Source: Apostichopus japonicus (Eukaryota; Echinodermata; Holothuroidea; Aspidochirotida; Stichopodidae). From it: DNA of 64,000 nucleotides. The position numbers and the translations under genes are program-made. Under the pieces are notes generated by a model. That model was not told the DNA's origin and did no database searches. It saw only the letters and a list, made by a program, of their open reading frames with translations. Where the stretch lies: positions 16,361,876-16,425,875 of the forward strand of contig NC_092567.1 of the NCBI RefSeq assembly GCF_037975245.1, in the 5' to 3' direction. This document shows, one piece after another, positions 1,209 to 31,935 of this stretch. Position 1 is the first letter of the stretch; each line of letters starts with the position of its first letter.

Positions 1209-4200
1209 TTATGAGGGCGCTACTTCTTCTCCTTTTGGTACCTCAGCTGGATCAAGTCCAAACTGCTTCATCTTGATCGCCGTCTCAAATAAGTAGTCGT
1301 AACTCTCGCATCTGTCATAGAGAGAAAGAGAGAGACAAGAATGAGATGATGAATGCTGAGAATTAACTTTTCTTTAGCTTATGTGTTTAGCTGTATGTTT
1401 AAAGGGTGTGAAGACTCGCACTAAAAGAAACGTCTAATGCCGGAAATTCGACCTAGTTTCGAAAGAGGTGTAACAGAAGTGTTAAACACCACCATTGATC
1501 CCAGAAAATACACACACAGCTTGCTGCCGTCGGTAATTAGACACTAGTGTATACAGTCTGTACATACAACTGCGGTCAATTTCATTTTCATTACTGTACT
1601 TTCTGCATTTTGTAGCGACACTAACAAAACGTCACTTGCAAGCAACAGAAAATAAACTTTTTCAGATGGCCGCACGCGGTTTGGGGCGAGTCTTCAATGC
1701 CTTTAAGAATGTGTTTTAGCTATCGGGTCTAGCTATGTGTTTAGCTCTGTCTTAGCAACGTATTCATGTTAGCTATACGTTTTCAGCTGTGTCAGCTAAC
1801 TGTGAATCTACGTGTTAGCTTTGTGTTTGGATATGTGTTAGGTCATGTGTTAGCTAGATGATTATCTAACATGAACTACATTACTGCATAATGTGCCCAG
1901 CATCCTTCAATGACTTCACTTGTTTTGTTTCATTACAGGTCTCGCACCATACGAACAGTAGCTGCCGCACATGATGAAAGACACATGATTAAAGATATAT
2001 AAAAATATTTATAACTTACCTTAGTTTTACTTTCTGCCAAGATTCACCCCATACATAGATACTATGTATCTGATTAAAATATTTATAACTTACCTTAGTT
2101 TTACTTTCTGCCAAGATTCACCCCATACATAGATACTATGTATCTGACTAAAATATTTATAACTTACCTGAGTTTTACTTTCTGCCAAGATTCACCCCAT
2201 TCATAGATACTATGTATCTGCCTAAAATATCTATAAATTACCTTAGTTTTACTTTCTGCCAAGATTCACCCCATACATCGATATTATGTATCAGACTTTA
2301 AAAATTATAACTTACCTTAGGTTTACTTTCTGCCAAGATTCACCCCATACATAGATACTATGTATCTGCCTAAAATATCTATAAATTACCTTAGTTTTAC
2401 TTTCTGCCAAGATTCACCCCATACATAGATATTATGTATCAGACTTTAAAAATTATAACTTACCTTAGTTTTACTTTCTGCCAAGATTCACCCCATACAT
2501 AGATACTATGTATCTGATTAAAATATTTATAACTTACCTTAGTTTTACTTTCTGCCAAGATTCACCCCATACATAGATACTATGTATCTGACTAAAATAT
2601 TTATAATTTACCTGAGTTTTACTTTCTGCCAAGATTCACCCCATTCATAGATACTATGTATCTGCCTAAAATATCTATAAATTACCTTAGTTTTACTTTC
2701 TGCCAAGATTCACCCCATACATCGATATTATGTATCAGACTTTAAAAATTATAACTTACCTTAGGTTTACTTTCTGCCAAGATTCACCCCATACATAGAT
2801 ACTATGTATCTGCCTAAAATATCTATAAATTACCTTAGTTTTACTTTCTGCCAAGATTCACCCCATACATAGATATTATGTATCAGACTTTAAAAATTAT
2901 AACTTACCTTAGTTTTACTTTCTGCCAAGATTCACCCCATACATAGATACTATGTATCAGACGAAGATATTTATAACTTACCTTAGTTTTACTTTCTGCC
3001 AAGATTCACCCCATACATAGATACCATGTCTTCTGACTATGACAGCATTGGTATTAGGATAGTCATCAAGTGCTTTCTCCATTTTGGCCTTTAAAAAGAG
3101 AAAAGAAAAAAGAGGAGATTAAATTTACAATATAATAGAAGCTTTTAGCTTTTTGCACCCAACTTTTTATGACTTCCTATAAAAAGAAGAGCCAACTCAG
3201 CTATGATATTTCGCATTTTACTTGAGAGTTATTAGTGAGAGAAATTCTGACCAAAGGGAAGACGTCATGTGACAAGGCTTCCATGTTGGCCAGCACGTGC
3301 TGTGTTACTGTCACCATTCTTTAAAGGAATAGTTCAGGTGTCACAAATGTTTATCTTATATGAAAAAGGACAATAAAAGAAACCCAACGGTGAAGAAATT
3401 ATTCAAATATCTTTTTCCATTTAGGAAATATTCAAGTTTAAAGTTCTCTCTGAATGTGTAGAAACTGCTGAAATCAGACTACACGTAGCTGTGACGTCAT
3501 ATCCTCACATTCCTGAAAAGTCTTTGTTATTTCATTAATATTTTGTAAGATTTTATGACCTACAACCAAAAGATACGTTAGGAGATCTCATATGTGTCAA
3601 GGGAAGTATTTGAGATTTAACATCTGAAGAATGTTTTTTATATTTATTTTTTAGATTTGTGAGAAAAAAAATGAAATTATTTTTTAATGAAATATATTGA
3701 CACATGTTAAGGAAGTGAGGATGTGACATCACACCCTCACAGTTAGTCTTTCTACACCAGTCATTTGCAAAGAAATTTTGAAATCTTCAAAGTGTGATAT
3801 CTCCTGAACAGAGAATGCTATCATGGTAGTTTCTTCACTATTCTGTTTGTCTTTTAAAGCTCTTTCATACAAGATTGACATATCAGACACCTGAACCAAT
3901 CCTTTAAAAGTGATCTTCTCTCCAAGCCCACCCCTGCCTCTTCCCCCTGCCCCATATGTTAAATGATGTCTTCTGTTTACCTTGCACTACGTTGCAAACT
4001 GAATTTTATGTCGTCATTGTAACACAGTCAAATATCAAAGCATATATATATATCAAAGCATCATGTATCAACGCAGTCAAATATCAACTTCGTAATTAGA
4101 GAAAACAAATTACATAACTGAATAAAAAAACCACTAAAAATATTAAAAACTGTTGGCATTTCCTCATTAGTCATCTTGTTTCTAGCAGATCTGTTTCTCA

Positions 4201-7200: not shown

Positions 7201-10200
7201 TTAAACGTACAGACTCAGTACAGTATCAAACAAATGTAAGAATATGAAAAAATAAGACATTTTTAAACAGGATTTGAGATAAAAACATTAACATATGAAA
7301 ACCTAAAACGTACAGTATCAAACAATTGTAAAGAATATGAAAACATAAGACATTTTAAAACATGCAGTAAACCAATATACAAGATGTGAATGCAGTGCAA
7401 TGTTTATACAATATACAATAGATGTTAAACTTAGGCACATCACTGACCTCTCTTTTGGTAGGCTGTCATCATAAGCCTGGCACACTGGCTTCGACGTAGT
7501 TTCTTCTCCTTTGGAGGTCCATCTAACTCGTCTCCGTTCAGGTTTGTAACGAATAGATCATCGGGCTGCAAGTCAATGTAAGAAGTATATACATGGACAG
7601 ATGAAGTACTGTATTGCATTGAGGATGTCATCCACTTTCATCAGTTCATTAAAGTGACTGGACCATAAAGTCTAATATTACAGAGACAATAGGTCAGTTC
7701 CTCACATGTAACAAAAAAAACTCAAAAGGAAAAACAAAACATTTTAATGGTCTCATTATGACATGGTTCACAATCATAAATACTTTGTCACTGAGATGGC
7801 TCTGTTGGTTATGTCAACTCAATAACAATTCTGTTGGTTGAGTAAATAATTAGAATTTAGAAAACAACATTTGGATTAAACATTAACATCAAGGCCTGCA
7901 TGTATGGAGGTGGTAAGTCATCCAAGACTTAGCATTCTAAAGGAGCTTTCCAGAATTTTAGCATGTTTAAAGGTGTGTAAATGAATTATCTTATTTGTCT
8001 TCGACTCTAACATATCACAGCAAAAATTCTGAATAAAGTCATACATTCAGCAAAATATTCCAAAATCCTCACATTATACAAAGTCACTTTTGATCCTTTG
8101 GAATAGTTCCAACTTTTATCGTATTGCCCACTGCCACCCTTATCTACCTCTTGAAAATCCCTACCCCTCCCCTTCCCCCTGGACTGTATTATTCCTTTTC
8201 CTTATTTTGTTTATACCTATTCCTTATCAGAAGCAAAAAGATACATGTGATGCTAACCTGAACTCTTTCTTTTTGAACCCCAGATGGTGTTACATAGATT
8301 TCATTTCTGTGAAAGGCAAAGAAATAGAAATAATATTGAAAACAAAACAGATAAAAAGTAACGACAGAAAGATATGGTATTACTAGACTTCTAGTTTTGC
8401 TGTAGAGGCAATCGGAGGCATTATGTTCCACTATCCAGTCATAGGATGGTAGAAAACTTACTATACATTAAAGGAGACAAATGTCAGGTATTTAAAAAAG
8501 GGGTGCCACATACAGAAACACATGTTGTCTACCAACAGCTTACACTAGTAGTAACAGAAATATGGCAATCTTTCCCAAGGTAATGGTCAAAATTTGGAAT
8601 ATTTCCTGGATTAATGCCAGTTGACTTTGCCATTTGTCAGTAGGGGAAAACTAGGCACTGACAATTTTTCTGCTAGTAGATGTCAAGAACAATAAGACAG
8701 GGTACTGTTAGTAACGCCCATTATCAGAACAATAACACATGGTATTGTAAGTACCGTCCATTATCAGAACAATAACACATGGTACTGTTAGTACCGCCCA
8801 TTATCAGAACAATAACACATGGTACGGTAAGTACTGCCCATTATCAGAACAATAACACATGGTACGGTAAGTACCACCCACTAGCAGAACAATAATGCAT
8901 GATACTGTAAGTACCACCCATTATCAGAACAATAACTCATGGTACTGTAAGTACCAACCATTATCAGAACAACAACACATGGTACTGTAAGTACCGCCCA
9001 TTATCAGAACAATAACACATGGTACAGTAAGTACTGCCCATTATCAGAACAATAACACATGGTACGGTAAGTACCACCCACTAGCAGAACAATAATGCAT
9101 GATACTGTAAGTACCAACCATTATCAGAACAATAACACATGGTACTGTAAGTACCAACCATTATCAGAACAACAACACATGGTACTGTAAGTACCGCCCA
9201 TTATCAGAACAATAACACATGGTACGATAAGTACCACCCACTAGCAGAACAATAATGCATGATACTGTAAGTACCACCCATTATCAGAACAATAACACAT
9301 GGTACTGTTAGTACCGCCCATTATCAGAACAATAACACATGGTACTGTTAGTACAGCCCATTATCAGAACAATAACACATGGTACTGTAAGTTACGCCCA
9401 TTATCAGAACAATAATAATAATAAGACTTATAATGCGCACACACCACTCAAAGAATGTTCATGGCGCAAATGACAATGAGAAATGATACAAATAATACAG
9501 AAAAATACAAAACAATGACAGAAGAAAAACTTAATGGTATGAGATCATATAAAAGCTTTTGTCATTAAGTGGGATTTTATGCTCTTCTTAAAGTTAGAGA
9601 GAGTAGATGTTTTTCTGATTTTTAAGGGAAGTTGGTTCCATAAGTGAGGGGCAGAAACAATAAATGACCTATCCCCCCAAGAATGTTTGGACTTAATTTC
9701 AGATAATAAAAATTGAGAGCTGGAACTTAGATTACGAGAGGGGACATAAATATGTAATAAGTCAGAAATATACATTGGATCATGTCCTTTAAGTGGTTTA
9801 TAAACAATAAGGAGAATTTTATACATAATACGATATTTTACAGGTAGCCAGTGCAAGTTTTTTAAGACAGGGTGGATATGACAATACTTATGAGAATGAG
9901 TTACAATACGTGCAGCTGAGTTTTGGATTAATTGGAGTCTATGAATCTGTTCATGTGGAAGACCGAGGAGTAAGGAATTGCCCATATCCAACCTTGAAGT
10001 GATAAAAGAATGTACAATTTGTTCAGTTGCCTTATCATTTAAATAGTTTCGTAATTTGTAGATGCCTCTGAGATGAAATGCAGCAGAACTTGTTATTTTG
10101 GAAATGTGGCGTTTCATAGACATACTGGAATCGAAAATTACACCAAGATTACGCGCATGAGTGGAAGGGCGAACCTGAACATTACCAATTGATATGAATG

Positions 10201-13200
10201 GAATATTAATTTTAGCAAGCTGATGACAAGAACCAACAAGAGCCCAAGGGCACTGTGGTTCCTTGCTTGGGGTATATGACAATACACATCATATTATCAA
10301 GCAAGATTGGGCTGAAATAGTCCAAGTAATTGTCCTACATGTTCCCATAAAGTAACCAACACTATAGCCAACACTTTTGTGATCACAAAATGTGATCTGA
10401 TTTTTTATCAAAAGGCACTTTTGAGATCTATAAATGGCATCGAAAATGTAAGAAATATAAGAGACCTACAAGCGTGTCAACAGATATGATAACAATGGTG
10501 ACCTCAGATGACATGACCTTTAAGTTTCAAAATGTTCCACCACCCCATTCACAACTTGTCCCAAAATATCAACCATGTCACACCATGGCATTGAGATTTA
10601 ATTGCATTAAATGTCAAAAAATTAACTTTTGAACTTGTATGTAACTTCACACACAAAGGTCACCCGGAGGTCAACCAATTGACATTTTTGATCGGTGAGA
10701 CCTAAATAGAGCATGACTGTAAAAATTCAAACATTTTTTCTTTGCCCATTTTCTCCCCCCATGATACTACTTTTTTAACATTAGCTGACCTTTGGTGACC
10801 TTGGATCACATGACCGTTAAGTTTGAAAATATTCCCCTATACCATTTGCAACTTGTCCAAAAAAATCAACCTTGTCACACCTTGGCACTGGGAGTTATTG
10901 CATTAAATGTCTGAAAATTAACTTTGACCTCAAATAACTTCGCACACGAAGGTCAAATGGGGGTCAACCCATTGACATTTATGATCAGAAGGTACCTTTA
11001 ACATCTGAAAATAGCATCGAAACTGTAAAAATTCACAAAACACGAAAAGGTCACCAGAGGTCAAATTGAGGTCAAGGGTCACCCAGATGCGGGTCGACAA
11101 TTAGATTACATTGAAGCAACTCCCAACCCTAACGGACAATTTGTTCTCAAGTTGTCGCAAAAATACTAGTTTTTTATCATTAATTGACCTTTGGTGACCT
11201 TGTATCACATGACCCTTAAGTTTGAAAATATTCCCCTATACCATTTGCAACTACTCCAAAAGTATCAACCTTGTCACACCTTGGAACTGGGAGTTATTGC
11301 ATTAAATGTCTGAAAATTAACTTTGACCTCAAATAACTTCGCACACGAAGGTCACACGGGTGTCAACCTATTGACATTTATGATCAGAAGTTACCTTTAA
11401 CATCTGAAAATAGCATCAAAACTGTAAAAATCCACAAATCACTAAAAAGGTCACCAGAGGTCAAATTGAGGTCAAGGGTCACCCAGATGCGGGTCGACAA
11501 TTGGATTACATTGAAGCAACTCCCAACCCTAACGGACAATTTGTTCTCAAGTTATCGCAAAAAATACTAGTTTTTTATCATTAATTGACCTTTGGTGACC
11601 TCGGATCACATGACCGTTAAGTTTGAAAATATTCCCCTATACCATTTGCAACTTGTCTCAAAATATCAACTGTGTAACACCTTGGCACTGGGAGTTTTTA
11701 CACTAAATGTCTGAAAATTAACTTTGACCTCATATAACTTAACATACAAAGGTCACCTTGGGTCAACTTATTGACATTTTTGATTGATGAGACCTAAATT
11801 AGAGCATCAAACTATAAAAATTCAAACATTTTATTCTTTGCCCATTTTCTACCCCCAAAATACTAGTTTTTTGACATTAATTGACCTTTGGTGACCTCGG
11901 ATCACATGACCGTTAAGTTTGAAAATATTCCCCTATACCATTTGCAACTTGTCCAAAAATATCAACCATGTCACACCTTGGATCTGGGAGTTGTTGCATT
12001 AAATGTGTGAAAATTAACTTTGACCTCGTATAACTTCGCACACGAAGGTCACACGGGTGTCAACCAATTGACATTTTTGATCGGAAGGTACCTTTGATAT
12101 CCAAATCTAGCATCAAAACCAAACATTTTCTTTTTTGCTCGTTTCCTCCCAAAATAAGCACATTTTTTCTAATGTGACCTTTGACCTTTTGACCTTGGTT
12201 TCAGATGTAGTTTAATCTCCTGATTCCAAAAAACAAAACGAAAAGTCTGTACAACCATCCTAACTCCGACCGAAAAACTTTGACCCCATATAACTTCGCA
12301 CATAAAGGTCACACGGGGTCAACCTATTGACATTTATGATCAGAAGGTACCTTTGACATCTGAAAATAGCATCGAAACTGTAAAAATCCCAAAAACACGA
12401 AAAGGTCACCAGAGGTCAAATTGAGGTCAAGGGTCACCCAGATGCGGGTCGACAATTGGATTACATTGAGGCAACTCCCAACCCTAACAGACATTTCGTT
12501 CTCAAGTTATTGCAAAAATACTAGTTTTTTATCATTAATTGACCTTTGGTGACCTCGGATCACATGACCGTTAAGTTTGAAAATGCTCCCCTAACCAGTT
12601 CACAACTTGTCCCAAAATATCAATCTTGTCGCACATTGGCACTGGGAGTTATTGCAGTTTTAATATTTTCGGTTTTTGGACCATAACTGACCTTTGGTGA
12701 CCTTTGTGGGCACCAAAAACAATAGGGCACACCTTCTCTATATGGCGGATCTATAGTCCAAGTTTGGCCTCAATCCAACATTCCCTTATTGAGATAGAGC
12801 GTACCCAAGCAAGTGTCACAGACACACACACACACACACACACACCCATACACACATACATACATACACACACACACACGCCAACCTGACTGCATAGGTT
12901 CCTTTTGCTAAAGCAAGGAACCAAAAAGCAAAAGCTCAGTTTTTTCTTCATTAAGCTTCAAAAAATTACGTCTCATCCACAAACGGATATCATTTATGCA
13001 ACTCTCAAGGCATCTGATGGCTTTAACACTCTCATCTTGAGAAGGACTGAAATCAATGTAAATCTGGGTATCGTCTGCATAAACGTGATATGAAATATTG
13101 TGCTTCACCAAAATTCTACGAATTGGAAGTGTATAAATAGGGAACCACTGAGGTCCAAGGACTGAACCCTGTGGAACTGAATAATCCAATAACACATGGT

Positions 13201-14648
13201 ACTGTTAGTAACGCCCATTATGAGAACAATAACACATGGTATTGTAAGTACCATCCATTATCAGAACAATAACAATGGTAGGCACCGCCCATTATCAGAA
13301 CAATAACACATGGTACGGTAAGTACGTACAGTAAGTACCGCCCATTACCAGCAAATATTGTTGGACTGTTCTCATACCTGTACATTAACTGATGTGTGCT
13401 GTAATTCGGGAAAAAGCCAGAGAGAACTCGAATTTTGACAGCAGCACTTTATTAAGCACCGACAATTTTTAATACCATGTGGCCAAGGATGGGAAACAAA
13501 GGCAACACATAAAACTGTCACCAACTACTGCAAAAACGCAGTTTTACATTGACAAGACAATTAAAGTCTTCTTTCATTTGACAACTAACCCTTCTTTAAT
13601 GGAGAGAGCACCACCAGATCCTGTCATCCAACCAAGATCATAAAATAAACGACACAATTCTGGAATCAGATGTCGCGGATGTTCCTGTGGAAATTGGACA
13701 TAAATGAAACTTCAAACTTCAACTGAATGAAAACGATTTTTGTCAAAAAGTAAAGACCTTGAATTAATTTTTTGACATAACATTTAACCAGCATTGTTTC
13801 GTTTGAGTAATCTGCAGAATAGTCAAAACCGTAGATGGGCAAAGCATACAGTAGTAAGCCGAAACATTTCCTATGGCCTGTGAGGCTTTTAGAACAGTCC
13901 TGATGAATGATATAGCAAAGAAAAAAAACATGCAAAAAGAAATGATACTCTATATCCTGTCAGTTTGCATGAATTCTAATATTTTGATATGACCAAAATG
14001 CAAATGGCAATTTAGATATCATGATTTTTAACATATATACTGTAACTTTAAAAAAAAACAAATTTTCTTTCTTCAGTGTTGAGGAAATGAAATGGTATAA
14101 CATACAAAATTTTACACTTCAGACCAGTGCAACTAAATGTTGAGCCCATCCCTGGTCCATCCAAAGATTAAAATGAACAAGACCATTACACACTGCTCCT
14201 CCAAAAGTACTTTCTGTTTAAAATGTAAAGTATCATGGTCATTCACCTGAATCATGTTTCATAGTTAACCCTAACAAAATTAATATTTTTCTTCATAATT
14301 TGAGGTCAAGTCAGATTTTTATACCTACAGTACAAGTAGAGTAACAGTAGGTAGTACAGTTAGAAGAGTACAGATTCAGTGCTACTGTATAAAGTAGCCT
14401 ACATGCAATATAGTAGAAAACTTGGTTTCATTATATTTTTAGTCTTGCTTCACTTTACAGTAGTCACAATCGATAGAATGGCTGCACAGCACAGCTAAAA
14501 CACGGACCAAAAAATGTGATGGTGGAAAAATGGTATAAAGATACAAATTTGATAGAATGCGCAACCACATGGAGGTTATGTTCCTAGAGTAGTATAGGAG
14601 AAATACTTTGCTATGCAGTACCTTGTCATAAACATTATTGCTACTCAT
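1209..14648 (-). CDS. APIP: APIP: methylthioribulose-1-phosphate dehydratase, 8 exons, complete
   Basis: Methionine-salvage enzyme that dehydrates 5-methylthioribulose-1-phosphate in the cytosol; the vertebrate protein also binds Apaf-1 and dampens cell death. Exons, in order of translation: 14622-14648, 13590-13684, 8258-8306, 7448-7565, 5703-5817, 4648-4708, 2982-3088, 1209-1311. All have AG/GT borders and compatible phases and give 675 nt (224 residues; human about 242). Visible landmarks are [31 protein letters not shown], the SQC cysteine, the HTHS metal ligands, [20 protein letters not shown] (third metal histidine) and CESYDYLF near the C-terminus. The start is the ATG giving MSSNNVYDK, which splices exactly to EHPRH as in the family. 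Two oddities: the catalytic Glu (human Glu139) reads Gln in HQQMIRG, and about 7 residues are missing at the exon 5/6 junction. The identification is firm; catalytic competence is uncertain. Confidence 0.94.
1399..1706. mobile_element. TTAA-flanked MITE, copy 1
   Basis: A 308-bp unit including TTAA at both ends, with imperfect terminal inverted repeats: AGGGTGTGAAGACTCGC on the left, and GCGAGTCTTCAATGCCT on the right (14 of 17 match after inversion). The interior aligns with the copy at 5929-6302, for example around ACACCACCAT and CCAGAAAATACACACACAGC. TTAA target duplications point to the Kolobok or piggyBac superfamilies. There is no coding capacity. It lies in APIP intron 7. Confidence 0.75.
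2005..2981 (-). repeat. 74-bp tandem array copied from the APIP exon 7 3' end and its splice donor
   Basis: Thirteen tandem units of 74 bp directly follow APIP exon 7 in the sense direction. Each unit reproduces the last ~45 nt of that exon (the part encoding [13 protein letters not shown]), the GTAAGT donor and ~25 nt of intron. Eight units keep GTAAGT; the others have GTAATT or GTAAAT. Diagnostic variants recur every six units: GATTCACCCC-type anchors at 2041, 2485 and 2929 are exactly 444 bp apart, so a 6-unit block was itself duplicated. The real exon 7 end (to 3028) is the fourteenth unit. Confidence 0.92.
3321..3907. mobile_element. TTAA-flanked MITE, second family
   Basis: A 587-bp element bounded by TTAA on both sides. 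The terminal inverted repeats are AGGAATAGTTCAGGTGTC on the left and GACACCTGAACCAATCCT on the right (16 of 18 match after inversion). The sequence differs from the 1399-1706 family. It is AT-rich with no ORF. It lies in APIP intron 6. Confidence 0.75.
5245..5640. mobile_element. hAT-type MITE with 8-bp target duplication
   Basis: A 396-bp non-autonomous element starting CAGTGGCGTAGCCAG and ending CTGGCTACAACACAG, flanked by the exact 8-bp direct repeat CTTTCAAG (5237-5244 and 5641-5648). An 8-bp duplication and CAG...CTG ends are typical of hAT. It carries GGGGGGCAAG motifs near both ends. It lies in APIP intron 5. Confidence 0.85.
5929..6302. mobile_element. TTAA-flanked MITE, copy 2
   Basis: Same family and orientation as 1399-1706, 374 bp with TTAA at both ends. 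It has extra internal sequence around 6110-6185 that copy 1 lacks. The left end is AGGGTGTGACGACTCGCCC and the right end GAGAGTCTTCAATGCCT. It lies in APIP intron 4. Confidence 0.75.
7096..7435 (-). repeat. LINE 3'-tail-like repeat with internal duplication
   Basis: Read on the minus strand, it ends in a TTAATAAAGTTGATC stretch followed by ATCTA-type pentamers, like the microsatellite tails of CR1/L2-type LINEs. The segment ACATTAACATATGAA with its surroundings is present twice about 110 bp apart (near 7182 and 7289). No ORF. It lies in APIP intron 4, just downstream of exon 4. Confidence 0.4.
8697..9412. repeat. 40-bp minisatellite, main block
   Basis: About 18 head-to-tail copies of a 40-bp unit built on TTATCAGAACAATAACACAT followed by GGTACTGTAAGTACCGCCCA, with scattered point changes. 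The GGTACTGTAAGTACC part is close to palindromic. The array resumes at 13190, so it was cut in two by the LINE at 9413-13189. It lies in APIP intron 2. Confidence 0.93.
9545..10236 (-). pseudogene. LINE ORF2 C-terminal fragment
   Basis: Open on the minus strand from the insertion junction to a stop at 9545. It contains [36 protein letters not shown] and [10 protein letters not shown], the usual landmarks downstream of the RT catalytic core in L2/CR1-clade ORF2 proteins. It continues the RT fragment at 12925-13189 across the TIR-less 2.7-kb insertion. No internal stop is seen, so the copy may be fairly young. Confidence 0.85.
10786..12703. promoter_or_regulatory. Arrayed nuclear-receptor-type direct repeats of AGGTCA
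   Basis: Inside the 2.7-kb element, three sites (11048-11081, 11448-11481, 12403-12436) read AGGTCA, 4 nt, AGGTCA, 5 nt, AGGTCA, 1 nt, GGGTCA: DR4, DR5 and DR1 spacings in one 34-bp block. Six further perfect DR4 sites occur on the other strand as TGACCT-TTGG-TGACCT at 10786, 11185, 11586, 11882, 12540 and 12688. The spacing is a sequence fact; receptor binding is inference. Confidence 0.35.
12822..12881. repeat. CA microsatellite
   Basis: CACACA runs broken by CCCATA and CATACATA steps, near the right end of the 2.7-kb element. A similar CA tract ends the related sequence at 53961-54006. Confidence 0.9.
12925..13189 (-). pseudogene. LINE reverse transcriptase fragment (palm)
   Basis: Minus-strand coding remnant with the core RT motifs [10 protein letters not shown] and [11 protein letters not shown], then [13 protein letters not shown]. 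It is the N-terminal half of what is left of the L2-like ORF2. Everything upstream of the PQG motif is missing because of 5' truncation at 13189. The reading continues in 9545-10236 after the inserted element. It cannot be active: endonuclease and the N-terminal RT are absent. Confidence 0.85.
13190..13349. repeat. 40-bp minisatellite, displaced end block
   Basis: About four degenerate copies of the same 40-bp unit as 8697-9412, in the same orientation, resuming right after the 5' end of the LINE. One unit is shortened and another has a duplicated GTAAGTAC step. Confidence 0.9.
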
Positions 14649-26744: not shown

Positions 26745-27398
26745 TTTCTAGGCTTCGCAGCCTATTCCTTCCCACTCCTACTCTACATCCGACGCTACAG
26801 GGTGTCTAGCACTTTGTTCCAGCTGCGTGCTGTAGACCTTTTACATCCATTCGTGAATTCGCTTTTCTGTTTAGGCGAGATTTCGTTTTGCCGGTTTGTA
26901 AAAACCCTTAATACCGCGTTTGTGGAGAAGTCATGGTGGAAGAAATACATCGTCGCAGATTTTTTTTCTTAAGCGTGGCTGCATGGGATTTTCCGTTGGC
27001 TTGAGGTCGGCAAGGGTCACTACTGCCCTCGTCCAATGATGTTTAGGGTGAGGCCTTTAATACCCCCTCTCTCTTTTTTTGCACATGTAAGTACTACATG
27101 GGTTGCAAGCTTCATTCCTCTCCTGGTTCAGAGTATTATCGCGTGTGCTGTGGTTACAGACAACTTATAACTGTATTTGGCTTTCGTGGAGTGCAGACGT
27201 GTTTCGCTCTCGCTCTCGCTCTCCATCTGATAACAGCTATTTTTTCACTGTACTGTACTGCCCTATACTTCCCGCCAGGCGGGTGTGCGCGCCAGTTCGT
27301 ATATCGTTATCGTATATAGTTATCGTATATCGTACTTTATCCAAACTGTCCTTAGTTTGTTTTTGTTACTCTTTTGTGGCCTAGCCACCTTTGGTATC

Positions 27399-28517
27399 AT
27401 GGCATCGCGCCGTGATTCCAAAATTGTTAAGTTAACCTTCACCGGTGAACAAGCGGTTCCACCGGTGCAAGTTTTTAGTATTTTGAAGAGTAAGGGTGTT
27501 GTTGTGCCTGGAGAGGTTGATGCTTTGCAAGCTCTCCAGGGTCGTAATACGTATGATCTACGTTTTACCAGTGACGTGACCCGGCAGAAGGGTGTCACGT
27601 TGCTGAGTGGGGTTGATGGTTTGACAGTTACTCCATACGAACGTTCCGTATGGGTAACTGTCATCCACGTAGGACTAGAGGTGCGTCAGGAACTTGTCGC
27701 AACTGTTTTAGGTCGGTTTGGGGCTGTCAAGGCTATGAAAATGTGCTCCTACGCACAGGCCCCTGGGGTGTTGAACGGGCACCGACAGGTTCGGATCGAC
27801 CTCAAGCAGGACATTCCCTCCTTCCTTTTTATTGCCGGGCATAAAGCTCACGTGCGTTACCCCGGTCAGCCCCGTACCTGTTTCAGGTGTGGGGAGACCG
27901 GGCACGAAGCCAAGGGCTGCCCGAACAAAAAGTGTGGGCGCTGCCTTCGTCTTGGGCATGATACCTCTGCTTGCCCAAGCGAAGTTGTGTGCTCACTCTG
28001 TGGGAAGGAGGGACATGTTTTTCGCGCTTGTCCCTCCTCTTATGTCTTTATGACAAAGAGTGGGGGTCAAGCAAAGGCGCCAAGTTCTGGCGCACCTACT
28101 GCCTCGGAGGAAGCTCCACGCAAGGAGGGGGAACCGGGTGAAGATTCACCTTCCGCACCTGGTACACCCTCCCCCGTAGTTGCAGACCCCAACCCCGTGC
28201 CCGCACCGAGAAAGTCTCCACCAGCTTCCCCCATCAACTCGTCCAGTTCCGTCCCCAGTCCGCCGCTGGTATCGCCAGATCCGGAGACTCTGTCCGACGG
28301 CGACTCCGGGGACTCGGTAGTCATCGGGTCTCCGGAGGCTCTGTCTGACAGCGACTCCGGAGACTCGGTGATCGTAGAGCCGAAACGTGTCACCGGGACG
28401 AACTGGTACGACGAGATGGGGGAACCCTCTCTAAAAAGGTCGGCCTCAAGTGACGACTCAGACTTCGATATGTCGTCTAGAGCTCGCTTGAAGCTTACAG
28501 AATCCTCGTCGGCGTAG
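27399..28517 (+). CDS. LINE ORF1: RNA-binding protein with three CCHC zinc knuckles
   Basis: Intact 372-residue ORF1 from the ATG giving MASRRDSKIV; the frame is open upstream but that part reads as 5' UTR. Three CX2CX4HX4C knuckles sit at residues 161-174 (CFRCGETGHEAKGC), 179-192 (CGRCLRLGHDTSAC) and 198-211 (CSLCGKEGHVFRAC). Residues about 80-155 could be an RNA-recognition-like fold, as in other Tx1/L1-type ORF1 proteins. The C-terminal 150 residues are Pro/Ser-rich and then acidic, with a duplicated GDSGDS motif. Its role is to bind element RNA in the ribonucleoprotein. The ORF ends 2 nt before the ORF2 start. Confidence 0.88.
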   Translation: MASRRDSKIVKLTFTGEQAVPPVQVFSILKSKGVVVPGEVDALQALQGRNTYDLRFTSDVTRQKGVTLLSGVDGLTVTPYERSVWVTVIHVGLEVRQELVATVLGRFGAVKAMKMCSYAQAPGVLNGHRQVRIDLKQDIPSFLFIAGHKAHVRYPGQPRTCFRCGETGHEAKGCPNKKCGRCLRLGHDTSACPSEVVCSLCGKEGHVFRACPSSYVFMTKSGGQAKAPSSGAPTASEEAPRKEGEPGEDSPSAPGTPSPVVADPNPVPAPRKSPPASPINSSSSVPSPPLVSPDPETLSDGDSGDSVVIGSPEALSDSDSGDSVIVEPKRVTGTNWYDEMGEPSLKRSASSDDSDFDMSSRARLKLTESSSA

Positions 28518-28519
28518 TT

Positions 28520-31500
28520 ATGCCTCATAACCCTCTCATGGCCCATACATTTTCAGTTGCCACTTTCAACGTCAATGGCATGAGGGATCATCGCAAGCGC
28601 AGTCGCATTTTCCAATATTGTATTTCAATGGAGGTCGACTGCGTTTGCCTGCAAAGAAACACATATTTTGGAAGAAGATGTCCCTCTATGGGCTTATGAG
28701 TGGGGTGGTGGGCTGCATGCTTCGTTTGGTTCGTCTTCATCCTGTGGCACTGTCATCCTTCTGTCACCTCGTCAGGCGGGTTGTGCCACTAGGGTGGAGA
28801 CGGATCACGAGGGCCGATTGGTTTGCATTCTTTTCAAGTATCCACAGGGTAACATCTCCCTTTGCAATGTGTATGCTCCCAATCGGCCTTCTGCTAGACG
28901 AGAATTTTTTAACACGCTGCCTTCCTCTGTTCCTGGTAGTGCACCATGTGTCATGGTCGAAGACTTTAACTGTGTCCCAGACTCGGGTCTTGACAGACTC
29001 GGGGCTTCTGTGTCTGCTAGTCCTGACGCTGGGATGACAGAATTGGACAGATTCACTTCGGCACACCTTTTAGCCGATGTCTGGAGGCATATGCACCCGT
29101 GTAGTACGGTGTATACGTGGGTGAGGCCTAACGGAGAAGATGCCTCCAGGATAGATCGAGTGTACGCGCCCGTAAGTTTTAAATTTTCGGGTTGCGAGAC
29201 GCTCAGCTGTCCGCTCTCTGACCATGACACTGTAGTAGCACGTTTTGGTTTGCCTTCCATTTTCCCGATCGGGCGGGGCCTATGGAAGCTTAACTGTCGG
29301 ATTCTTGGCGAGGCAGAGTTCCGCCAGGGTTTCGAAACCAGGTACAAGGGATGGCAAACATTGAAGCCGGCCTTTGCTTCTACATCCCAGTGGTGGGATG
29401 ATGTCAAGTTGCGCATCAAACGCTACGCAATTCAGTATTGCGTGACCCGCGCACGGCGTCGAAGAGAAAAATTCTCGAAGCTGTGCACGGAGGTGAAGTT
29501 TGGCGACCCTTCGGCTGTCATCGCTTTACAGACTTATCTCGATGAAAAGTACCACGGTGCCCGCGTCAGGGCCCGTGTCGAAGCGGTGGAAGCCGAGGAC
29601 CGCCCTTCACTGAGGTTTTACCAGTCCGTAAGCTCATCGGCGGGTGACAGACGCGTCCCATCTGTGCGCGCTACTGATGGGACCGTGGTTAGTGACCCTC
29701 ACGGCATTGTCCGCGTATACAAGGATTATTATTCGAGTTTGTTTACGCGTGGCAACGTCGACTTGTCGGCACAGGCCGATTTATTGAGGGGAATCTCAAA
29801 AACTGTTCCCCACGATGTCAATGATATTTTGGGGGGGGGGGGGGGGGCGGAATAACCACTGTTGAGCTTTGGAAGGCGCTTTCGAAGATGAAGAATGGCA
29901 AGTCCCCGGGTTCGGACGGGCTTCCGAGGGAGTTCTACCGAACCTTCTGGGCATTAATAGGACCCGACCTCAGAGCCGTCTTCGAGGACGCCTTCCAAAA
30001 CGGACTGTTAAACCAAAGTCAACGTCTGGGCATGATTACTTTGCTGCCCAAGTCTGGGGACCCCTTGGATCCTCATAACAAGCGTCCAATCACCTTGTTA
30101 AATGTAGACTACAAGTTGCTGGCTAAGGCTTTGTTCAACCGCCTTGCACTGGCTATGCCGCATCTTGTGGGTGATCTCCAGACTTGTGCAGTCAAGGGTC
30201 ATTGCAGAACTTGTGGTTGATGCGCGACTTGACCGACTTTGTTATGGACCGAGATCTGCCATGTGCATTGGTGTCTCTGGACCAGCAGAAGGCCTTTGAC
30301 ATGGTGGATCGTGGGTTTTTAATGAGTGTATTGGAGACGTTTCAGTTGCACCCAAATTTTCGTAAATGGATTTCTGTTTTGTATCAGGAAAGTTTCAGTT
30401 CTGTTATCGTAAATGGGTTTTGTTCGGAGGTTTTTAACGTGGAGAGGGGGGTGCGCCAGGGGTGCCCTCTGTCTCCATTACTTTATGTTTTGTTTAGCGA
30501 GTCCCTCTCCCGTCTTTTGGAAAGGGACTCAAGACTTGTTCCATTCGTGTTGCCAGGGGGTGCCAAAGTGAAATGCGTTCAATATGCAGATGACGTCACG
30601 TGTGTTGTTTCGAGTCTGGGCTCCTTTCGTGCCCTCTCGCAGGATTTGTTTATCTTTGAGAGAGCTACCGGGGCGAAGTTGAATCCGGAAAAGACAAAGG
30701 GCCTTCGCCTTGGTAGCTGGAGATACAGAGACTTGCCATTCGGTGCATCGTGGTCGGATCAAAATATCAAAATTAATGGTATATGGTTCGGCTGCGATGC
30801 ACCTTGTGATATAACCTGGAACGAGAGGGCTGAGGTATTTGAGAGCAGGCTCGAAACCTTTGGCACCCGCTGGCTTTCGATCCTAGGGAAAGTCACCGTA
30901 ATTAATCGTTTTGTTTCGCCCATCTTGTGGTACCCGGGCGCGGTGTATCCAATTCCGCGTCGCGTCCTGGTGCGGTTGGAGAGAGCGATATTTTCATTTA
31001 TCTGGTCGGGTGGTACAGAGCTTGTCAAAAAGTCGGTAATGTACCAAAACCTGGAGAAGGGTGGGTTAGGGGTGGTTCATCTGGGAAGTAAATTGACCTT
31101 TTTGTTATTTAAGCAGTTGTTTGTAGCGGTAACTGACCCAGGGTTGCCTTGTTCATATTTTGTACGTTTTTGGGGCGGTTTGCACCTGCGTCGATGGGTC
31201 CCGGCGCTGTTTAGCAACAGAGAACCGCATAGTAGTACTCCAAACAGGGTGGTGCGTGTCATCTGCTCCGCTCTGATTGAGTTGCCCCCTGTTGACCTGT
31301 CACAGCCGGCCCTCGTTCACAGTTCGTTGCGGGATAAGGCCTTGAATGCAACTTTTGTCCAGGGACGTCATTCTGCCGAAGTATGGTGTTCGGTGCATTC
31401 AAGGCTGAATGGTTGCAGGCTCCGTGATCTCGCATGGAGAGTTGCACACGGTGCCTTGGTGACCAACCTAAAAAGATATCATTGGCGATTGGGTGATGGA

Positions 31501-31935
31501 CTGTGCCCTAGGACCGGCTGTGACAGCTTAGAGAGTACTGCTCATGTTTTTTGGCATTGTTGCTTTGTAGTAAACTTATGGGAGTGGTTCCAGACCTGGA
31601 CCGACCGTGTTACGGGAGACCGTTCATGGTCGGTAGGGCAGGGCTTTATTTTATATGGGGTAGACCCTCCAGTTTGTTCGGTAGCTGTGTTGCACCGCAT
31701 CATTTTTGTTTGCTCTATTGTAAAAAAACATGTTTGGCGGAATAGATGTAATTTGGTTTTTAGGGGGAAATTTGCCAGTTGGCAGGCAGTCCTGGAGGCG
31801 GTGAAGTCTGACATTCGCCTTCAAATTGAAGGCGATTTTCGCCGTTTATCTGGGGCTGCCTTTTTTGGACGCTGGTGTGCTGGGGAGGGGTGTTTCGTTT
31901 CGCTGCGTGCGGGTCGTCCTTTTGTAGGTTTTTGA
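28520..31935 (+). pseudogene. LINE ORF2: AP endonuclease plus reverse transcriptase, three frameshifts
   Basis: Starts at ATG 28520, two bases after the ORF1 stop. The endonuclease shows ATFNVNGM, CNVYAPN, EDFNCV (the usual G of GDFN is E), SRIDRVYA and LSDHD. The RT shows LDQQKAFD, GVRQGCPLSPLLY and QYADDV; the C-terminus carries CPRTGCDSLESTAHVFWHC, a CCHC-like finger. Breaks: a one-base insertion at about 28653-28655, a 17-G run at 29831-29847 where the sister copy has only four G, and a 7-nt loss near 30198 relative to the sister copy. Without these the frame would be continuous. The copy is dead unless they are assembly errors. Confidence 0.88.

Follow-up and report, generated by a model that had tools for sequence, protein, structure and literature searches.

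The APIP gene and the array in its intron 7

The window, that is, the whole stretch of 64,000 nucleotides analysed here, carries on its minus strand the gene encoding APIP (methylthioribulose-1-phosphate dehydratase). The pieces of this gene, joined by eye, match PDB entry 4m6r with an E value of 2.6e-84; the translation of exon 7 scores 27.4 bits against the Aldolase_II profile (cut-off 22.2), and the junction between exons 7 and 8 restores the APIP reading frame. The gene looks intact, to judge from the conserved protein and the open exon 7-exon 8 junction, and this implies that the first donor of intron 7 is chosen in at least some of the transcripts, provided that the gene functions.

Intron 7 carries a tandem array that reproduces the end of exon 7 together with its donor. 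Tandem Repeats Finder delimits a single array between 2002 and 3039, with a score of 1703, a period of 74, 89% matches and 14.0 copies; in it, 14 units of 74 bp stand in register from 3036 to 2001 on the minus strand. Unit 1 corresponds to the authentic end of exon 7 and the donor that follows it, while the other 13 are extras located in intron 7. The features of this region are the following:

2982..3088, minus strand: APIP exon 7 (107 nt), with acceptor and donor placed, frame joining exon 8 and a match to Aldolase_II
2963..3036, minus strand: unit 1 of the 14-unit register, the genuine exon 7 end and donor
2976..2981, minus strand: true donor GTAAGT (U1 duplex of -10.6 kcal/mol)
1312..2981, minus strand: intron 7, 1670 nt including the array, from the placement of donor and acceptor
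2001..2962, minus strand: the other 13 units of 74 bp, all within intron 7, from Tandem Repeats Finder, the register and the donors
2519..2962, minus strand: first 444-bp block (units 2-7), identical to the second at 441/444 bases
2075..2518, minus strand: second 444-bp block (units 8-13), identical to the first at 441/444 bases
2907, 2759, 2537, 2463, 2315, 2167, 2093 and 2019, minus strand: first bases of the GTAAGT copies of the donor
2833, 2685, 2389 and 2241, minus strand: first bases of the GTAATT copies
2611, minus strand: first base of the GTAAAT copy
1212..1311, minus strand: coding part of exon 8, encoding the last 33 residues of APIP, joined in frame to exon 7

The exon-derived stretch of each unit measures 47 nt without a gap, where the initial annotation had put it at ~45 nt, and by eye, a small indel allowed, it may go on for another ~10 nt. 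Some 19 nt of intron sequence were copied along with the exon part. All 13 copies retain the GT, within GTAAGT in eight cases, GTAATT in four and GTAAAT in one. When the 33 nt around the true donor are compared with the minus strand of the window, they have 14 matches at 28/33 or better and, outside the array, a best match of just 22/33; with donor-context matches confined in this way, the array cannot be a product of chance. The initial annotation had described 13 extra 74-bp units repeating the exon 7 end and donor, eight of them with an intact GTAAGT. The register bears out the former, and our count of the latter is the same; the units also align in register with the end of exon 7, which answers the doubt, raised at the time, that they might be unrelated to it.

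Three APIP-like paralogues lie in tandem on the same contig (C7:16471772-16475550, 16505928-16509675 and 16540247-16543977), ~34 kb apart and ~105-180 kb from the APIP gene of the window, to which they are 56-64% identical over the matched exons. None of the three has an array at the matching donor. On C4, C11, C15, C19, C20 and C21 we also observed 22 short matches to Aldolase_II, which cover about positions 137-183 of the profile, most of them as 63-aa open frames. On C19 and C20, many are separated by 100-230 kb; together, the 22 would represent an expanded gene or repeat family.

Growth and turnover of the units

The two versions of the 444-bp block differ at 3 positions, and it is to this single duplication that many of the intact GTAAGT copies trace. 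The 13 copies are mutually 85-100% alike, as against only 81-88% when compared with unit 1. The block duplication is a recent event, and the array shows ordinary minisatellite turnover. Since the last duplication is recent, the number of copies in the APIP array probably varies among animals.

With one assembly at hand and two 444-bp blocks that are nearly identical, it may be asked whether an assembly artefact accounts for the array or for its number of copies. However, the units carry different variants, and comparable arrays occur in at least 39 other places. An assembly error may change the copy number, but would hardly produce the array itself, so that we regard this explanation as very unlikely.

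Variable columns among the 13 copies amount to 5 of 47 in the exon-derived part, compared with 10 of 27 in the remainder. The lower variability of the exon-derived part looks like constraint, and an array that is purely neutral would not have to display it. Selection on the copies was considered on this ground and set aside: the changes come down to a small number of shared events and several of them belong to one linked haplotype, and we make no claim for it.

Repeats that span splice boundaries in other organisms

Tandem repeats lying across intron-exon boundaries have been described in amphioxus globin genes under the name of mirages, and they occur at both kinds of boundary (PMC3087553). 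According to that paper, RT-PCR suggests that regular splicing is unaffected, and one mirage has 6 units in one haplotype and 3 in another. A second paper, which also refers to Adh and troponin C, adds a mirage in PGBD5 of the lancelet (PMC3902484); the amphioxus mirage genes named in the two include Adh3, the globin genes BflGb6 and BflGb9, and PGBD5. As described there, the units span the boundary in the same manner, many of them carry AG/GT signals, turnover is concerted, and unit lengths (10-72 bp in Adh3, 150-160 bp in the globin genes) are in the same range as the 74 bp of APIP. The APIP array differs in belonging to an echinoderm and in having 13 extra copies on the donor side. No report of echinoderm mirages was seen in searches of open-licence PMC papers. 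The APIP array combines several traits by which mirages are recognized, namely boundary-spanning units, splice signals that are kept and turnover of the units, and on the sequence of one assembly it is to be classed as a mirage-type minisatellite.

Two further cases are related. Human internal tandem repeats reported at exon-intron boundaries are likewise minisatellites across such boundaries; in contrast to the APIP array, they are located in recent segmental duplications, with altered splicing supported by transcripts (PMC2812944). In the potato RdRp gene, an intron was gained through a tandem duplication that also crosses a splice boundary (PMC4974935). That duplication concerns the acceptor side (intron 1/exon 2) and the new intron was detected, whereas APIP has many copies on the donor side.

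Choice between the true donor and its copies

The predicted pairing with U1 is -10.6 kcal/mol for the true donor and for seven of the copies; it is stronger at the copy at 2167 (-12.1 kcal/mol) and weaker at the remaining five (-6.6 to -8.3 kcal/mol). Thus, 8 of the 13 copies equal or surpass the true donor in U1 pairing. Masking of the copies by RNA structure was examined as an explanation and rejected, the accessibility of the 9-nt true donor (0.021) falling inside the range of the copies (0.006-0.172). The true donor is therefore distinguished from its copies neither by U1 strength nor by accessibility. As neither property protects it, the choice has to fall to position, provided that full-length APIP is produced.

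The initial annotation had pointed out that an in-frame TAA follows immediately beyond the true donor. This is the case for all 13 later donors: the TAA lies directly after the donor, the frame ends in SWQKVKLR*, and the stop falls 70-958 nt before the last junction. According to the usual rule, nonsense-mediated decay (NMD) acts on mRNAs whose stop lies more than 50-55 nt upstream of the last junction, and mRNAs using the copies are therefore predicted NMD targets. A mis-chosen donor would thus be likelier to result in mRNA decay than in a shortened enzyme. The truncated enzyme that the annotation had proposed as the main outcome, short of 33 residues, would require retention of the intron or escape from NMD.

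These stops, together with the U1 strength of eight copies, would be expected if the array controlled the dose of APIP, a share of the transcripts using array copies, meeting the TAA and decaying, so that output is lowered or tuned. However, any phase-2 intron that begins with GTAA gives an immediate TAA, which is hence no sign of design; the array is missing from all three paralogues, and published mirages seemingly leave splicing undisturbed (PMC3087553). We consider such control of dose unlikely. Strong U1 sites clustered at the start of the intron could also serve as a U1 landing pad, shielding intron 7 from early polyadenylation (telescripting), but neither AATAAA nor ATTAAA is found on the sense strand between 1100 and 3190, which covers intron 7, and this role is hardly credible.

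The units might also be a source of new exons. In 10 of the 13 copies an AG is placed such that the unit could be spliced in as a phase-matched, stop-free microexon of 54 nt, adding 18 residues in frame, and a route from mirages to new introns has been proposed in the amphioxus work (PMC3087553). On the other hand, a pyrimidine tract is absent, by eye, ahead of the AG, neighbouring units would leave an intron of 20 nt, and a match in phase is expected by chance in about one case out of three. Taken together, this makes splicing of the units as microexons highly improbable.

A minisatellite of human IFI6 (6-16) was reportedly treated by Turri in 1995. It resembles the APIP array in placing several donors after an exon; it supplies splice donors of which downstream units are used in mRNA, and the use of later units keeps the frame open, to go by the isoforms described (PMC4526556), whereas the later donors of APIP all lead to SWQKVKLR*.

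Donor-motif arrays elsewhere in the genome

The genome (671.6 Mb in 35 contigs, the window being on contig C7) was searched for three AGGTAAGT at a spacing of 68-98 nt, and further arrays came from four NAGGTAAGT searches. No excess of donor-motif arrays was seen, the donor motif giving 271 + 182 hits and its reversed form 275 + 183; among the matches listed, however, this control consists mostly of simple repeats of the TGAA type, along with a handful of long arrays, so that the hit counts compare poorly either way. The array of APIP itself is absent among the matches listed for AGGTAAGT, so that this search has no visible positive control.

The AGGTAAGT and NAGGTAAGT searches together yielded at least 39 array loci, of which 38 were retrieved, leaving out C5:21710758. 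For 24 of the 38, picked by upstream openness and by eye, the open reading frames (ORFs) reaching the first donor were scanned with Pfam, and four of these 24 were also compared with PDB. In seven of the 38 cases, the exon at whose donor the array starts is identified by an accepted homology:

L003 and L004: Aa_trans, two related loci, over the Pfam cut-off
L006: Glyco_transf_21, over the Pfam cut-off
L008: Y_phosphatase, over the Pfam cut-off
L066: MoeA_N, over the Pfam cut-off
L070: Fibulin_C, over the Pfam cut-off
L007: serine palmitoyltransferase 1, PDB, best E value of 7.9e-6

The homology reaches to within ~4 residues of the donor in L003, L004, L006, L007, L008 and L070, and ends ~20 residues short of it in L066. 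Matches below the Pfam cut-off were obtained for L009 (Y_phosphatase) and L014 (TSP1_ADAMTS). Of the remaining 29 arrays, 15 were scanned and had no accepted match, and 14 were outside the scan; eight of the 29 look coding by eye (L005, L011, L013, L060, L061, L063, L065 and L071), the others showing nothing clear. PDB searches with L011, L061 and L063 gave nothing convincing. L063 has the look of a diacylglycerol lipase exon, an impression that the searches do not support. The length of exon that is repeated varies: 0-5 nt in L007, 6-10 nt in L008, 23-26 nt in L003, ~40 nt in L006, L013 and L014, and 36-70 nt in L005.

On the strength of the seven named exons, exon-anchored donor arrays appear to recur in this genome. 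The APIP array had first been taken for a single oddity. This view cannot be kept, since similar arrays recur and the type had already been described, in amphioxus, as mirages (PMC3087553). Several boundary-spanning arrays in an echinoderm suggest that mirages are more widespread than amphioxus.

Two of the loci are of a different make. In L060 (C17:196788-198188), each 80-bp unit apparently holds a whole small exon, with an acceptor, CTTCTTTCAG, and a donor, and the locus is possibly a tandem microexon array. In L071 (C22:7784995-7786395), located downstream of at least 110 open codons, the donor-bearing units measure 33 nt, a multiple of three, and are stop-free in one frame; later donors would add repeats of 11 residues, as in IFI6.

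Whether arrays prefer donors was examined with two controls. For the reversed motif, 14 arrays in 16 stretches were available, and 10 edge-crossing ORFs from 7 of them gave no Pfam hit, simple-repeat ORFs and arrays without an edge-crossing ORF having been left out. On the acceptor side, triples of TTTTGCAG gave 60 hits against 36 in the control and defined 26 loci, 16 of which were retrieved and 9 scanned with one ORF each; as acceptors lack a common 8-mer, their comparison with donors is unfair. One candidate of this set, L042, was rejected as an exon: it scores 27.9 bits for DUF2583 (cut-off 27.0), but no single stretch passes and the ORF is made of repeats. With donor ORFs chosen partly by eye, and not blind, Fisher's test gives p = 0.09 for donor arrays (7/38) versus the reversed motif (0/14), and p = 0.013 versus reversed and acceptor sets combined (0/30), or p = 0.058 if L042 is counted (1/30). 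For scanned loci only, 7/24 compares with 0/7 at p = 0.13, with 0/16 at p = 0.019 and with 1/16 at p = 0.08. Upstream openness at the first motif differs between 37 donor arrays and 28 control edges (Mann-Whitney, p = 0.028), L057 being excluded because its array extends to the end of the retrieved stretch. A preference for donors over acceptors or random sites is not established.

A model for the origin and fate of the array

The unit structure, the origin from an exon end, the block duplication and the consequences for the frame were all obtained from sequence. One model would account for them as follows. A tandem duplication would have taken in the junction of exon 7 and intron 7 of APIP, and the array would have expanded by unequal exchange or slippage, including the recent duplication of a six-unit block. 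By what is presumably the simplest rule, exon 7 would be delimited by the acceptor upstream of it and by whichever donor is transcribed first. The 5'-most donor would then be used and the entire array would leave with intron 7, the occasional use of a copy producing an NMD-sensitive mRNA.

We give a probability of roughly 0.75 to this reading, a mirage-type minisatellite close to neutral, whose first donor is used and which is wholly removed with intron 7. It is favoured by the intact APIP gene, the turnover of the units, the paralogues without array, the recurrence of arrays elsewhere and the amphioxus RT-PCR. It is weakened by the true donor being neither stronger nor more accessible than many copies, that at 2167 pairing better. 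It is weakened also by classic experiments with duplicated donors, which often favoured the donor closer to the acceptor. In our analysis, the array is most likely without function and spliced out from the first donor. Of the interpretations put forward in the initial annotation, the copying of an exon end with its donor stands and the neutral option fits best; a decoy buffer or dose control finds no support.

A wider version of the model can be imagined, though it is doubtful: donor-anchored minisatellites would form a standing class in this genome, whose spliceosome would obey a strict "first donor wins" rule even where nine nearly identical donors are set tens of bases apart, with leakage into NMD in some genes, APIP included, so that copy number varies expression from one animal to another. 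The arrays amount to a natural experiment, in which many donors are alike over tens of bases and differ in position. They could reveal, in living animals, whether position alone governs the choice of 5' splice sites, how often this choice leaks and whether new exons are seeded. The value of the locus lies in this positional test of donor choice, and in mirages beyond amphioxus, rather than in the regulation of APIP.

Other repeats in the window and genome

An upstream intron of APIP holds two stretches of a 40-bp minisatellite, at 8686-9415 (18 copies) and 13187-13325 (3.6 copies), flanking ORFs at 9545-10288 and 12911-13204 that resemble, by eye, fragments of reverse transcriptase. This minisatellite may represent a tail repeat belonging to a non-LTR element. 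The stretch 27234-31935 of the window has, by eye, the appearance of a non-LTR retrotransposon: an ORF with a CCHC zinc finger precedes ORFs for endonuclease and reverse transcriptase, which are spread over several frames. In the COX1 gene of contig C35, all 9 AAA codons fall opposite Asn of a vertebrate-type COX1 chain in the PDB, and 4 of 5 AGA/AGG codons fall opposite Ser, in keeping with the echinoderm mitochondrial code (table 9). Flatworms likewise read AAA as Asn, and the assignment to echinoderms is drawn from this code together with the close COX1 match. Finally, C29 carries pieces of COX1 in addition to the COX1 of C35, which would be nuclear or misassembled mitochondrial copies.
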